This document shows, piece after piece, positions 22,851 to 27,985 of a stretch of DNA of 30,780 bases; the first letter of the stretch is position 1, and the number at the start of each line of letters is the position of its first letter. The DNA is from a virus, in the IMG/VR virus record IMGVR_UViG_3300027754_000027, positions 1 to 30,780 of that record. The stretch is one strand, 5' to 3'. Position numbers and translations under genes: made by a program. A model generated the notes under the pieces. That model had not been told where the DNA came from. It saw only the letters and a list, made by a program, of their open reading frames with translations, and did no database searches.

Positions 22851-24039
22851 ATTGTTTAAGTGTGAAGTTTTTCTTTTGTGAAACTGTTTTATAAATCTTT
22901 TCGGTTAACGAATCTTTTCCAAATATAAAAAACACATCGTTTTCTTTTCGCTCTTTAGTCGTTAGCCTGTCAATTGCTTGAATAAACATTGTTCCTGAGA
23001 AACCGAAGTTGTAAAATACTAAGCAATGAGCATTACTTAAATTCACACCTAATGCACTCGAATATTGTTGTCCAATGTAATGTTTACCTGTTGTGTTAAA
23101 CTCATTTAAATCGCTTGTGGAGTTAGGGAAAACTAACTTTAATAATTCTAACTCTTCAACGTAATAGTAAAATATAGCCAACTTTTTGCCTTCAAAATAA
23201 TCTCTAATAAATTCAGCTTTGCGAGAGTTAAGAATCATTGATTTTCCCGACTCAAATTTAATCGTACCGTTCTCTAATTGGTGAACTTTCTGCATTAATT
23301 TTGATCCCGAATCTGCTAATATTACGTTTTCTTTGCCCTCAATAATTAAGTCTTTTTCTAAACGTTCTATTAAGTTTCTGCATAATGTAGGGTAATAGAT
23401 CACGTGTTCTTTTACTTTGCTTTCAAATCCACTTTGTTCTTGAGTAAACTTAATAATATACGGTTGAATAACTTCGTCAATCAATGCAATTTTTGCATCT
23501 GAATAGTCGTTAATCATTGCATAGCCCATGTTCTTTTGTTTCACGTTTACGAATGTTTTTGACCACTTGTAAAAATTAACATCTTTAAATGGTGAATAAG
23601 AACTCACCCCAAACTGATGGTACATTTGAGAATAAGATTCGGACGCTGGTGTACCGCTTAAAAAAATCATTGGTACACGTGAATATTTAAGTTTAAATTC
23701 TTTCACTCGTTTTGATGGTTTTGGGAATGCTCCGAACCGATGATGCTCGTCATGGATTATTAAATCATAGTTTCCTTCGATATTAGCTAATTGCTCATCG
23801 TTTGTAACAGTTAGATTAAAAGTATACCCAAAGTTAGCATAATCACTTTCAATCGAGCTTATAGCTTTCTTTTTCGTTAAGAATAGAACGTTGTTAGCTC
23901 CGTATAGTTTAGCGGTTTCTAAAGCGGTCAAAGTTTTTCCGCAGCGTGGTTCCATCATTAGGTAAACTATTCGCTTTTCTTTAAGTATAATATTCGCTTT
24001 TTGCGATATCTCAGTTTGGTAATCTCTTAAAATGGGCAT
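22825..24039 (-). CDS. Snf2/SF2-type DNA helicase
   Basis: A 404-residue SF2 ATPase. Motifs: Walker A PRCGKT (31-36), DEHH (97-100) as Walker B, SGTPAS (128-133) as motif III, YYYVEELELL near the middle of the C-terminal RecA lobe, and QAIDRLTT (354-361) as motif VI. The DEHH box and compact length resemble phage Snf2-like helicases. It probably remodels or unwinds DNA during replication or recombination. The gene overlaps the primase gene by 13 bases. Confidence 0.85.
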   Translation of the reverse strand: MPILRDYQTEISQKANIILKEKRIVYLMMEPRCGKTLTALETAKLYGANNVLFLTKKKAISSIESDYANFGYTFNLTVTNDEQLANIEGNYDLIIHDEHHRFGAFPKPSKRVKEFKLKYSRVPMIFLSGTPASESYSQMYHQFGVSSYSPFKDVNFYKWSKTFVNVKQKNMGYAMINDYSDAKIALIDEVIQPYIIKFTQEQSGFESKVKEHVIYYPTLCRNLIERLEKDLIIEGKENVILADSGSKLMQKVHQLENGTIKFESGKSMILNSRKAEFIRDYFEGKKLAIFYYYVEELELLKLVFPNSTSDLNEFNTTGKHYIGQQYSSALGVNLSNAHCLVFYNFGFSGTMFIQAIDRLTTKERKENDVFFIFGKDSLTEKIYKTVSQKKNFTLKQYERTRTTK

Positions 24040-26372
24040 TCTTCTGATGGTTTAGTTAGTTCGTCAATGACTTCTATTTTTATTTTTCCAATTCCCCCAC
24101 TGTAAGAGCTTTCAAAATTAAAATCGTAAAACTCGCAAAATTTCTTTAGGTTCCTTGTCATTATGTTTTGTGAAATATTTCGTTTTCTTAATTCAGGGAA
24201 TGAGTCAAGTAAATTATCATAAACAGTTTTTACTTTTAACCATTCGTTTTTGTCAATTGAATTAAAGAAAATCAACATTTCATCTGAAATCTCATTAACT
24301 AATTTTCTATAAGCTAAATTAAACAAAGGCATTTCAATCAATCCATTCTCTAAATATATTTGCACACATTCCATCATGTAGTTGTCAAAACGTGACCATT
24401 CTTCTTGATTCCAGTCATTAAACAACTGATGACCAAATTCATGTAAAGGTGTATACTTATCATTAAAATAGCTGCTCATTTCTACCTCGTATTTACGTGC
24501 TAAAAATGAAGCTGAATCTCCGTTGATAGTATAGTTAGTTGTGATAATAATTTTAGGTGATTCTGTAACATCTAATTTTATAGAGTCTTTTCCTTTATAC
24601 TCAATTGTTATTCCCTCTGTAATAACACTGAATAGATTCTCAAAATTAAAGTTTTTTCTAACGTCATCAAATACTAATACTTGGCAATCTGTTGATACAT
24701 TCTGATAAGGAAATGACTTGTTAAAATCAAATGTTTTCCCATCCAATGATTGAACTTTACGCAAATGTTTTAACGCATTCCAAAATACACCTTTTCCACT
24801 CCTTCCGTTTGGATTCTCTGAAATCACCTCGTCATTAAATACTATCGCTTTATTGTTAGAATTCGTTTTGTGAGAATGTAATAAGTAGCCTATAACAGTT
24901 TGAAATGCTTTGTATTTTTGTTCATTTTGCCCTGATATTTTCCAAATAAACTGCCTGTATTCTGATGGGTGGTGGTCGATAGGGAAGTAGTCTCTATTAA
25001 TTACTTGGTCTCTCCATACTCCTGAGTCAATCTCAGAATAACTCAGAACTGACCTACCTTGTTTTGTTATGTTTACAATGCAGTTTTGATAATAAAGAAA
25101 ACAATTATCTTTTGTATCTTTTAAAGTTTTTATTGGTTTAGATTTTAATAAAGATAAATAGTCACGTTTAAAAAACTTTAAGTTTCCTGTAATCAAATTG
25201 AACACACCTTCATCACATTTATTTCGCTCTACCCAATCAATAACAAAATCCTTCATGTCTTTTTCGTAAACAATTTTTAAGAATATACCATCTTTATGTA
25301 TAAAATCAAATGTACTCCCCTCGTTAGGTGAGTTTTTAAAGAAATCGTTTGACTCTAAAAAATCCTTAAATCGCTTGTTATTAAGTGAGTAGTTTCCTTT
25401 TTCTGTTGTCGACCAAAACTCTTCATTGTCGACCATGTTAAACCGCTTTCTTAAATCGTCTTTTGCTCTTTTCCAATCACCATCGTACTTTAATTCAGTA
25501 AGTATATTGAATGGGCTATATGCTTGTCTTGATTTAAATGGTTCACAACTTGCATCTTCAGAAAAAATATAAAACATACTTTTAAAATGTCCAAATGTTG
25601 CACTAAAACCATCTTTTGCGTCTTTGTTTGGTCTTGTCCAATATTCAACATTATCTTGTTTTACCGTGCTTAATTGCCATCCTGATTTCAATAATAATTC
25701 TTTTGACTCTTCTTCAAACTCTAAATTGTATTTTCCATCAGGTGTGTCATTTTTCCATGACTCCGCCCATTTCTTATCGTTAGATGAAATCTTTGTTCTA
25801 CTAACTATCTCTTTATATCTGTTAAATGAATGAGCATAATCTTTAATCGCTAACCATTCTTTTTCAGTTTCAATTTCAGTTAGTTTTAAATATTCAACTC
25901 CTGTTAAATGAGTATATCCCTCACTTGGATAGCAAGCACAATATTGACCGTTTCCACGTATTTCAATCATTACAGATTTAGTTTCCCAATATGAAAAAAC
26001 ATCACCTTTTAAAACGTCTTTTGTATATCTGAAATAAACGTGAAATCCTCCACCCATTGTTTTATAAACCGAAAGTTTGCCCTCTTCAAGTAATGAATAA
26101 ACAAAAGGTATATCTATAAAATCAGAATATATCGCTCCAACGTCCTCTCCGTTATGACAGTCAAAATCAATACAGTAAAACCCATCAGAAACTAAACCGC
26201 AAGCAATTCCAATCTTCTCAGCTTGTTTAAATAGTTTTTCAACGTCATCTTCTTTTACTTTTTCATATAAATAATTATGTCCTTTAGGTAGTTTTGGAGA
26301 TTTATTACTATTCAATGGTAAAGGATTCAATCCCTCGTTAAGAAGGTCATAAGCTGATTCTATTAAACTCAT
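24027..26372 (-). CDS. Primase-helicase (AEP primase + SF3-like helicase)
   Basis: A 781-residue fusion. N-terminal primase-polymerase domain: CIDFDCHNG (D69, D71), GGGFHVYFRY (H111) and EIRGNGQYCACYPS (from E137), the three motifs of archaeo-eukaryotic primases. The C-terminal helicase has a Walker A-like NPNGRSGKG (520-528), VLVFDD (Walker B, about 565-570) and PKIIITTNY (sensor 1, 606-614), as in D5/DUF5906-type SF3 enzymes. It would prime and unwind at the phage origin. No phage DNA polymerase was seen, so elongation likely uses the host replicase. Confidence 0.9.
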   Translation of the reverse strand: MSLIESAYDLLNEGLNPLPLNSNKSPKLPKGHNYLYEKVKEDDVEKLFKQAEKIGIACGLVSDGFYCIDFDCHNGEDVGAIYSDFIDIPFVYSLLEEGKLSVYKTMGGGFHVYFRYTKDVLKGDVFSYWETKSVMIEIRGNGQYCACYPSEGYTHLTGVEYLKLTEIETEKEWLAIKDYAHSFNRYKEIVSRTKISSNDKKWAESWKNDTPDGKYNLEFEEESKELLLKSGWQLSTVKQDNVEYWTRPNKDAKDGFSATFGHFKSMFYIFSEDASCEPFKSRQAYSPFNILTELKYDGDWKRAKDDLRKRFNMVDNEEFWSTTEKGNYSLNNKRFKDFLESNDFFKNSPNEGSTFDFIHKDGIFLKIVYEKDMKDFVIDWVERNKCDEGVFNLITGNLKFFKRDYLSLLKSKPIKTLKDTKDNCFLYYQNCIVNITKQGRSVLSYSEIDSGVWRDQVINRDYFPIDHHPSEYRQFIWKISGQNEQKYKAFQTVIGYLLHSHKTNSNNKAIVFNDEVISENPNGRSGKGVFWNALKHLRKVQSLDGKTFDFNKSFPYQNVSTDCQVLVFDDVRKNFNFENLFSVITEGITIEYKGKDSIKLDVTESPKIIITTNYTINGDSASFLARKYEVEMSSYFNDKYTPLHEFGHQLFNDWNQEEWSRFDNYMMECVQIYLENGLIEMPLFNLAYRKLVNEISDEMLIFFNSIDKNEWLKVKTVYDNLLDSFPELRKRNISQNIMTRNLKKFCEFYDFNFESSYSGGIGKIKIEVIDELTKPSEECPF

Positions 26373-26869
26373 AATGTTATTTCTTTTAATTTGTTTTGAT
26401 ACACTAATGCTGCTTTTAATTCACAATCAAACATCCCTAAATGAATCCTTTTTTTGTCTAATAAAATTCTTGACACCCATTTATTACTCCGCTTATGCCA
26501 CGATACACCTTTAAATTCTGAACTGCAATTTACTTTAATTTTAAAAACATTAAATCTATTGGTTACTATTTGTAAATTTTCTAAACGGTTATCTGTTTTA
26601 TTATTATTTACATGGTCAATTAATAATTCATGCCCACAAGGTTCGTGACCTAAAAAAGCCATTGCTACTAATTGATGAACGTTTAATCTTGAGGGTTCAT
26701 TAACCTTTGATAAAAAAACATCATAATATCCGTTTTTATTTAATCTTAGCTTTAATAATCTTTCTTTTTTTGTTTTGTTATAACTCAAACTTTTTACATT
26801 ACCTAAATTAGATACCTGATACAATCCTTCATATCCAATTACATCTCTAAACTCTTCCATAATTACCAT
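26369..26869 (-). CDS. HNH homing endonuclease (NUMOD4-HNH-AP2-like)
   Basis: A 166-residue protein with three modules: NUMOD4 at about 4-45 (FRDVIGYEGLYQVSNLGNVK), an HNH core at about 62-104 (HQLVAMAFLG, then DHVNNNKTDNRLENLQIVT) and an AP2-like DNA-binding end (SEFKGVSWHKRSNKWVSRI). Such enzymes cut an intron-less or intron-bearing site to copy themselves. M4 (26860) may be the true start since it directly follows the lipoprotein stop. It interrupts the step from the lipoproteins to the primase gene, so it is probably a mobile insertion in the early operon. Confidence 0.88.
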   Translation of the reverse strand: MVIMEEFRDVIGYEGLYQVSNLGNVKSLSYNKTKKERLLKLRLNKNGYYDVFLSKVNEPSRLNVHQLVAMAFLGHEPCGHELLIDHVNNNKTDNRLENLQIVTNRFNVFKIKVNCSSEFKGVSWHKRSNKWVSRILLDKKRIHLGMFDCELKAALVYQNKLKEITL

Positions 26870-27087
26870 TCTGTTGTGTTAGTTATACAATAATTATCTC
26901 CCGGGTGTGCATTCATCCAATCTCCCTCTGTTAGATAAAATGTTTTTAAATTATTAGTATTTGAATTTCTAATTGTAATAGAGTACTCATGTACATTATC
27001 ACTTACTATTCTACCACACGTTGATGGTTCTTTTGAACAGCTTAACATTGTTAATACTGTTGCTACTGCTAACATTACTTTTTTCAT
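26863..27087 (-). CDS. Small lipoprotein 2, 74 aa
   Basis: Starts MKKVMLAVATVLTMLSCSKE. Residues 1-17 form a type II signal peptide with lipobox L-S-C17, so the mature protein should be lipid-anchored with S18-K19-E20 next to the cysteine, like surface-export signals of some flavobacterial lipoproteins. The mature part is about 58 residues, with two more cysteines (C24 and C68). It starts 3 bases after lipoprotein 1. A role in superinfection exclusion or outer-membrane remodelling is inference. Confidence 0.75.
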   Translation of the reverse strand: MKKVMLAVATVLTMLSCSKEPSTCGRIVSDNVHEYSITIRNSNTNNLKTFYLTEGDWMNAHPGDNYCITNTTEW

Positions 27088-27089
27088 GA

Positions 27090-27251
27090 TTACTTGTTTA
27101 ATGAAGGGTTGTGAACTACACTTAAGGTTGTGCCGTCTTTTAATACTGTCGTTTCAATTGTGTAAACCACATTTTTAAACGATCTTGTTTGTTCTTTTGT
27201 CGAACAACTTGCTAAAGCTAACAAGCCTAAAGCAATTACTAATTTTTTCAT
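27090..27251 (-). CDS. Small lipoprotein 1, 53 aa
   Basis: The frame starts MKKLVIALGLLALASCSTKE and ends VVHNPSLNK. Residues 1-15 are a classical lipoprotein signal ending in lipobox A-S-C16; a short mature part of 37 residues follows. It is the first gene after the structured leader (27271-27366), and the leader's loop can pair with the bases just before its ATG. Along with the next gene it forms a tandem lipoprotein pair at the head of the early operon. Exact function unknown. Confidence 0.7.
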   Translation of the reverse strand: MKKLVIALGLLALASCSTKEQTRSFKNVVYTIETTVLKDGTTLSVVHNPSLNK

Positions 27252-27270
27252 ACTGTACTTATGTTAAATT

Positions 27271-27323
27271 AAAAAACCCACATTGTGCTTTCGGAGTACA
27301 GCCTACTAACACAATATGGGTTT
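27271..27323 (-). terminator. Long hairpin with U-tract in the early leader
   Basis: On the minus strand a 14-position stem pairs 27323-27310 with 27287-27274 (AAACCCAUAUUGUG with CACAAUGUGGGUUU) over a 22-base loop, then a run of six T from 27276. The one non-Watson-Crick position is G-U on the minus-strand RNA but C-A on the plus strand, so the structure is specific to minus-strand transcripts. It could terminate a short RNA or attenuate the lipoprotein operon. Confidence 0.75.
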
Positions 27324-27366
27324 ACAAATGTCTTTTGTTTTACGATGCCTGTACTTCATCTTAACA
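27271..27366 (-). ncRNA. Candidate short leader RNA / attenuator
   Basis: A transcript starting just after the -7-like box at 27379-27372 and ending in the U-tract near 27271 would be about 95 nucleotides. AGTACAG occurs at 27355-27349 and again at 27259-27253, directly before the lipoprotein ATG (27251), while its complement CTGTACT is in the hairpin loop (27301-27295). The RNA could thus sequester either copy. Existence as a free RNA is inferred from promoter plus terminator only. Confidence 0.4.
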
Positions 27367-27371
27367 CTCTA

Positions 27372-27379
27372 CAAATATA
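27372..27379 (-). promoter_or_regulatory. Probable early promoter -7 box
   Basis: Minus-strand TATATTTG fits TAnnTTTG and is embedded in GATTATATTTGTA, the same context as in the 22.57-kb promoter. No clear TTTG is found at the expected -33 position, so activator dependence or a weaker promoter is possible. Confidence 0.45.
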
Positions 27380-27690
27380 ATCAATTATTTTAATTAAATA
27401 CACTATTATAAAAAATAATGTTAATTTATATTCATTCCAAATAAGAAAAATTAGAAATATTTAAAAAGTAAAAAGTGACGGTTTTTTTCTGTGTTAAAAT
27501 ATTGTTGTTTAGAGTGTTATAATCAAAAAGTCACTTTGTCAACTTTTTTTCAGAAAAAAAAATAAATGTTTTACTACTACTACTAAGGGCGATGTAACTT
27601 GGATATTTTATTTTTTATTTCAAAATACTGATAATGAAAGGATAAAAGCCGAAATAATTATTTATGTAATTTTTACTTTTTTACAGATAA
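27380..27690. other. Gene-free AT-rich control region, possible origin
   Basis: About 310 bases without a credible ORF on either strand. It contains an 8-base inverted repeat (AAAGTGAC at 27472-27479, GTCACTTT at 27530-27537), four TAC repeats (27572-27583), and long A/T tracts (27481-27488, 27543-27561). It lies between the terminator at 27.70 kb and the early promoter box and is the largest non-coding stretch of the genome. A replication origin or regulatory hub is plausible, but no iterons with clear periodicity were seen. Confidence 0.45.
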
Positions 27691-27725: not shown

Positions 27726-27751
27726 ACAGAGGGAAATCGATTTCCCTCTGT
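27726..27751. repeat. Perfect 26-base palindrome
   Basis: The half-site ACAGAGGGAAATC (27726-27738) is followed directly by its exact complement, centred on ATCGAT. It begins 4 bases after the stop of the 76-aa gene and lies 8 bases upstream (in transcript order) of the terminator. It may be a dimer-binding operator or an RNA hairpin with a UCGA loop that stabilises the transcript end. Confidence 0.85.
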
Positions 27752-27754
27752 TGG

Positions 27755-27985
27755 TTATAAAACTTTTTTTAACAGGTAAAACAACTCTTGAGCTTCGTCG
27801 TAATCTAATCTGTTTTTATTACGTTGTGTGAATTCTATTCCATTACCTGTGTCTTCTATTTTAAAAATTGCTTGTCCTTTTAAATCATCATGCCAACCTT
27901 CATCTTTCGGGTCTGCTATTAACGTATGTTTACTTTCTGTTTTTTGGTATAAATAACCACAACCTCCTAATTTTATCTTTTTCAT
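27755..27985 (-). CDS. Hypothetical protein, 76 aa
   Basis: Starts MKKIKLGGCGYLYQKTESKH and ends ELFYLLKKVL. It has one N-terminal Cys-Gly pair and a mixed beta/alpha pattern; no domain is recognised. It is the last gene of the short operon and is followed by a palindrome and a terminator. It begins 1 base after the glucosaminidase stop region. Function unknown. Confidence 0.6.
   Translation of the reverse strand: MKKIKLGGCGYLYQKTESKHTLIADPKDEGWHDDLKGQAIFKIEDTGNGIEFTQRNKNRLDYDEAQELFYLLKKVL

Follow-up and report, generated by a model that had tools for sequence, protein, structure and literature searches.

The virus record analyzed here (30,780 bases, the minus strand carrying its main genes; "the window" below means this whole stretch) raises the question of whether a seven-letter element, present twice in front of a replication operon and complementary to a hairpin loop between the two copies, is a coincidence or part of an RNA regulator, and if so of what kind. 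The window phage is a Bacteroidota phage. The gene order 3' of the leader is two small lipoprotein-like genes, an HNH endonuclease and a Prim-Pol primase, followed by a helicase, an ERF recombinase and structural genes. Since the genes upstream of the leader end in their own terminator (27717-27697) and the primase operon lies downstream, we place the leader at the head of the replication operon (Table 1). The weak PHROG match of the second lipoprotein gene is perhaps caused by its signal peptide alone. A 13-base inverted repeat with perfect arms and no spacer (ACAGAGGGAAATC/GATTTCCCTCTGT, 27726-27751) lies behind the gene at 27755-27985 and is followed by the upstream terminator.

Table 1. 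Features of the leader and of the operon that it precedes (window coordinates)
Feature	Coordinates	Strand	Remark
Promoter -7 box TATATTTG	27379-27372	-	Predicted; fits the Bacteroidota consensus TAnnTTTG
Hairpin 1, GATG[AAGTACAGG]CATC	27344-27360	-	Presents loop A; stems covary among relatives
Element A, AGTACAG	27355-27349	-	Complementary to loop B; covaries
A/T-rich linker	27324-27343	-	20 nt; about 15-25 nt in relatives of the window scaffold
Terminator hairpin	27274-27323	-	14-bp outer stem, internal loop, GG/CC pairs, 7-nt apical loop
14-position outer stem	27323-27310 with 27287-27274	-	Part of the terminator hairpin
Element B, apical loop CTGTACT	27301-27295	-	Terminator loop
U-tract	27271-27276	-	Expected 3' end of a putative ~95-nt RNA
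Element C, AGTACAG in CATA[AGTACAG]TATG with the start codon	27259-27253	-	15-nt frame shared by 7 leaders
First gene, 53-aa lipoprotein-like protein	27090-27251	-	Variable cargo, not conserved at this place
Second small lipoprotein gene	26863-27087		Weak match to PHROG 1119 (Cor superinfection exclusion), E 1.4e-4
Prim-Pol primase/helicase	24027-26372	-	Conserved operon core

A preliminary description of this DNA had reported a promoter-like box, two copies of AGTACAG, a stem, the loop CTGTACT, a U-tract and an ATG, and each is present where Table 1 places it, as is the G-U pair ascribed to the minus RNA: one position of the outer stem is U-G in the minus RNA and A/C in the plus RNA (I15; 93%). 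Loop B is closed by GG/CC above the GUUAGUAGG/CCGAAAGC internal loop; the internal loop of the terminator reads UUAGUA/GAAAG, and its AGUA/GAA resembles, by inspection, a bulged-G motif. The stem runs directly into the U-tract, as in an intrinsic terminator, and this arrangement is kept in relatives. Compared with shuffled versions, the 93-nt leader RNA folds better (z -3.14; 1 of 200). A single T separates the downstream AGTACAG from the ATG (27251-27249, minus strand). Drawn as a hairpin, CATA[AGTACAG]TATG has a predicted minimum free energy of 0, and because it is not stable alone, C may be a single-stranded target.

TAnnTTTG is the -7 promoter consensus of Bacteroidota (PMC7366714); no convincing -33 element accompanies the box. 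The -7 box lies 59-72 nt upstream of the GTTAGTAGG scaffold in most relatives of the window scaffold. The motif TAGAGTGTTA occurs once per strand, at 27510-27519 (+) and 27362-27371 (-), 140 bases apart; situated at the expected start of the leader transcript, it may be a protein site or mark a divergent start. Because the window shows only a mild excess of AGTACAG (6 occurrences versus 3.3 expected) and TAnnTTTG boxes are at chance level (54 versus 50 expected), the window sequence alone is suggestive and not proof. A further AGTACAG at 20494-20488, 6 nt before an ATG, was considered as an additional trans target and taken as chance, since L004 keeps the site despite a different leader B and L003 differs by one base.

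Relatives, all of them metagenomic contigs, were collected by a primase-based scan of viral contigs, which gave 72 loci. In most of these a terminator lies either ~940 bases before the primase, with cargo genes between, or 15-34 bases before it; this position indicates that the leader belongs to the operon and that the lipoprotein gene is inserted cargo. The metagenomic phage contigs share one layout (TAnnTTTG box, 5' hairpin with loop A, A/T-rich linker, terminator with loop B, and U-tract). Leaders of this kind head replication operons with differing first genes, and the layout is kept before primase, HNH, ParB-like, GIY-YIG-like and unknown genes. A role specific to the lipoprotein, as first envisaged, is not borne out, since C, like the leader itself, precedes not only lipoprotein genes but also HNH, primase and other genes.

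In the primase-locus leaders, two segments, one ~66-85 and the other ~19-30 bases upstream of the U-tract, are complementary to each other, and the letters of this A/B match vary widely (AGTACAG, GATACAG, GTGGTAG, GGCTTCAC, GGTCTGAC, AGATCTCA, GAACAGCCAA, AATCACCCT and others). Permutation tests used one representative per specificity, because related sequences are not independent. Across 17 specificities the self match was 6-10 bp versus a mean cross match of 4.5, and the observed sum was reached in none of 100,000 re-pairings.

Scanning for the frame that defines the window scaffold, GTTAGTAGG[B]CCGAAAGC, gave ~20 phage leaders with this architecture, and in ~20 window-scaffold phage leaders the loop of hairpin 1 equals or contains the complement of B (for example, GATACAG in AGTT/AACT, ATTGCGC in GTTATTA/TAATAAC, and GTGCAT in GAATT/AATTC). 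The hairpin 1 stems themselves differ (GATG/CATC, AGAG/CTCT, GGTT/AACC, AGTT/AACT, GAATT/AATTC and more), with 4 of 4 pairs changed on both sides, and pairs of the outer terminator stem have also changed on both sides. In the constructed alignment of these leaders (A4), A was picked as the match to B, which biases its A-B counts; the unbiased measure is the cross test, which gave 65, a value reached in none of 200,000 re-pairings. A second leader group (16 leaders) was aligned by sequence only, without structure. Helix A-B was paired in 92% there and 4 of its 8 pairs had changes in both partners, counts that are lowered by MAFFT splitting loop B in L142, L145 and L152. The covariation score of the whole structure was reached in 0 of 500 shuffles and collapsed when the partners were slid by several columns. 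RNAalifold independently recovered the terminator of this group, with six pairs changed on both sides.

Element C behaves in the same manner in a subset of leaders. Seven window-scaffold leaders, the window included, have the start region CATA[seven letters]TATG, and in six of these the seven letters are the exact complement of the leader's own B (AGTACAG, GGTACAG or GATACAG, hence three specificities); the remaining one, L249, has one B-C mismatch in this frame. On another scaffold, CATCCAC before the ATG of L029 matches its own B. In class II leaders, GGGGTTTGCGGTTAGCTGCCCAGTAAAAGG is followed by the terminator loop; they carry B without hairpin 1 and usually have two full or partial B-complementary copies between the U-tract and the start codon. 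Their 28-base core, GGTTTGCGGTTAGCTGCCCAGTAAAAGG, is nearly unchanged with different primases (L021, L030, L169, L172 and L186), and the loop behind the core and the downstream copies change together: with five specificities there are 120 pairings, and the true one alone ranks first. Most leaders with A-B have no C.

Together, these comparisons show that A-B complementarity is kept by selection in a large family and B-C complementarity in a subset of its leaders, and that the window leader is a member of a family of phage "kissing-hairpin" leader RNAs. The loop had been proposed to pair with either copy, and covariation in relatives was named as the check; that proposal stands, as the loops stay complementary despite changed letters, A-B in the large family and B-C in the subset.

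The family extends over several unrelated scaffolds. An architecture-only scan of 3.3 million bases returned 52 matches versus 8 in reversed sequence. Among the further scaffolds, one precedes HNH genes and has GTCGCTG or GTGGACG, a second has GTTGCAG and a third GGTTACG; in another, the letters are GGCCTGA, GGCTGAACA or GGGCGTA. Over all scaffolds the A/B specificities number ~29 (hand count). Seven genomes carry two such RNAs, and in all seven the mutual match is at most 2 bp. In the closest relative of the window (the 34,963-base contig of L191 and L373) the second RNA precedes an HNH-like gene; in the window, this leader alone scores at least 7 bp. HNH homing-endonuclease-like genes at L249:3982, L121:6555, L148:2696 and L373 have their own kissing-hairpin leader, with a specificity unlike that of the operon leader. 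L324, L339 and L342 contain a second kissing-hairpin RNA, in three specificities, with no ORF directly behind it, so this RNA is possibly a free small RNA and not a leader.

Our preferred reading, held with somewhat less than even confidence, is that the leader is self-attenuating and that a short RNA pairs through B with A and C to lower expression of the replication operon. Most transcripts from the operon promoter would stop at the terminator and yield a stable RNA of ~95 nt, whose loop B would pair with the A of leaders still being transcribed and with the C of those few mRNAs that read past the terminator. As it accumulates, the short RNA would lower translation of the replication operon and perhaps read-through. 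Because the pairing is specific, the brake would be limited to the same phage or to phages of the same specificity, as with the P4 CI RNA, and could provide feedback or control of superinfection coded by that specificity. Contact between A and B may also arise inside a single molecule, stabilising the RNA or tuning the amount of free B. Promoter use, termination, the short RNA, its action in trans and its biological role are all inferred from sequence; it is plausible that a short RNA ends at the terminator and acts on the start region. Two features favor short-RNA feedback: neither A-B nor B-C pairing disrupts the terminator stem, which leaves loop-loop contact, within one RNA or between RNAs, and C lies behind the terminator, so that for B to meet C either the RNA must be a read-through product or the short RNA must pair with the mRNA.

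The main rival, which we regard as a real though minority possibility, is that hairpin 1 and the terminator loop kiss within a single molecule, giving a compact terminator or a leader that is stable, and thereby set a fixed level of read-through, with no action in trans and with C as a minor tuner of translation. The A-B contact could be purely intramolecular: it is present without C in most leaders, the fairly constant linker (about 15-25 nt) fits a fold-back, and covariation by itself cannot tell cis from trans. What such a fold leaves unexplained are the C copies that track B and the class II leaders, which have B and C without hairpin 1.

A classical read-through switch, in which alternative pairings make or break the terminator, is improbable. 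The preliminary description had considered such switching between termination and release, and A and C do both compete for B. All three elements nevertheless lie outside the terminator stem, B being apical, so that A-B and B-C pairing leaves every stem pair intact and does not compete with the terminator; this leaves a terminator/antiterminator flip unsupported, and no antiterminator stem is seen in the window leader. Still less credible is a leader-peptide attenuator: the window does contain a 17-codon ORF (ATG 27359 to TAG 27306) that would be translated into the terminator stem, but by inspection it is absent from same-scaffold relatives such as L335, L009 and L253, and what is conserved is the loop complementarity. 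We give almost no credence to a reading of the AGTACAG/CTGTACT copies, three in all, as operators bound by a protein at the DNA level; they are short inverted copies near a promoter, yet the RNA hairpin loops that hold them have covarying closing stems, close relatives differ in the letters of the copies, and the stem pair changes include G-U. A plain terminator of the upstream genes accompanied by chance 7-mers, equally hard to credit even though the 7-mer is not rare in the window, is refuted by the covariation; those genes, moreover, already have a terminator of their own.

The short-RNA feedback that we prefer has parallels in known phage and plasmid systems. The operon of P4, an enterobacterial satellite phage, is of the primase type. 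Its CI RNA pairs with seqA upstream and seqC downstream and thereby stops transcription of the replication genes (PMC4825925). Like the window leader, it is a small RNA from a replication-operon leader with one loop complementary to one upstream and one downstream site; this combination within a single leader is found in the window, L335, L366, L336, L338, L009 and L029. Unlike that of P4, the window RNA is expected to have its 3' end at an intrinsic terminator immediately after the B hairpin, which suggests that it would be made by direct termination rather than by P4-style processing of a longer transcript. The family also departs from P4 in that A and B lie in facing hairpin loops, C overlaps the start region, many relatives lack C, and an integrase shows in hardly any of the records, many of them fragments.

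The c4 antisense RNA of P1/P7 gives heteroimmunity through loops that pair around a ribosome-binding site (PMC12197685). It (RF01695) resembles the leader as a phage RNA acting by loop pairing; the leader differs in having its target in the same transcript, an additional upstream partner and no Rfam match. In ColE1 RNAI/RNAII and pT181 attenuation, fully complementary loops of 6-7 nt kiss, replication genes are controlled and specificity groups exist, with the partner RNA coming from the opposite strand; A, B and C, in contrast, lie on one strand of one transcript. The leader reads as a variant of phage RNA regulators of the P4 CI/c4 sort, with a real chance that it forms a separate class.

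Searches of Rfam 15 gave no family match, only noise below threshold for the window region and no c4 match even at an E value of 5; among 19 loci compared with Rfam, nothing reached the gathering score, RF01695 included. Literature searches, covering open-access papers, found no such leader in Bacteroidota phages. Among named phages, six concatenated leaders found no leader DNA match, and close relatives of the primase were not present. Blast matches to Tenacibaculum phage JQ and Elizabethkingia phage TCUEAP2 were rejected as promoter-like AT-rich stretches without hairpins. In host genomes, a scan of 395 from the phylum to which the Saprospirales record belongs gave no occurrence of the scaffold pattern, and the primase occurred in one MAG contig only. 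Integrase PF00589 was present in 1 of 31 records and resolvase PF00239 in 0 of 17 records tested, many of the records being fragments. Because nearly all records are without an integrase, a role in lysogenic immunity is doubtful for the window phage. The exception, the 41,397-base contig of L340, is the sole family record in which a tyrosine integrase was detected (E 9.8e-16), and some carriers are thus probably temperate.

RNA-coded phage immunity and attenuation are known from few systems, mainly enterobacterial (P4, P1/P7). The family described here heads replication operons of aquatic Bacteroidota phages, mostly without a visible integrase, and a match kept through changed letters suggests that these RNAs are phage switches or brakes of a family not described before. 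The family also shows one leader position being taken over by RNAs that are unrelated in structure but share their logic. If action in trans is true, specificity groups would be predictable from seven letters, phage-phage exclusion could be tested with reporter plasmids, and the loops would provide a natural set of orthogonal RNA attenuators. The broadest version of this view, which we consider less likely than not, is that of an undescribed and widespread class of Bacteroidota phage RNAs providing RNA-coded copy control and superinfection exclusion on replication operons and homing-endonuclease genes, with several unrelated scaffolds and dozens of orthogonal loop specificities, in phages that mostly show no integrase.

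The scaffold frame also turned up outside this family. An initial, looser scaffold pattern gave mostly chance matches, and the stricter pattern also finds reverse-transcriptase leaders: GTTAGTAGG[short loop]CCGAAAGC stands just before genes starting MKRHGNLY... (L343, L349, L350, L353, L359, L364 and L320), which by eye resemble diversity-generating-retroelement or group-II-like reverse transcriptases. There the frame may be a shared structural motif, of the AGUA/GAA bulged-G type, of a retroelement RNA.
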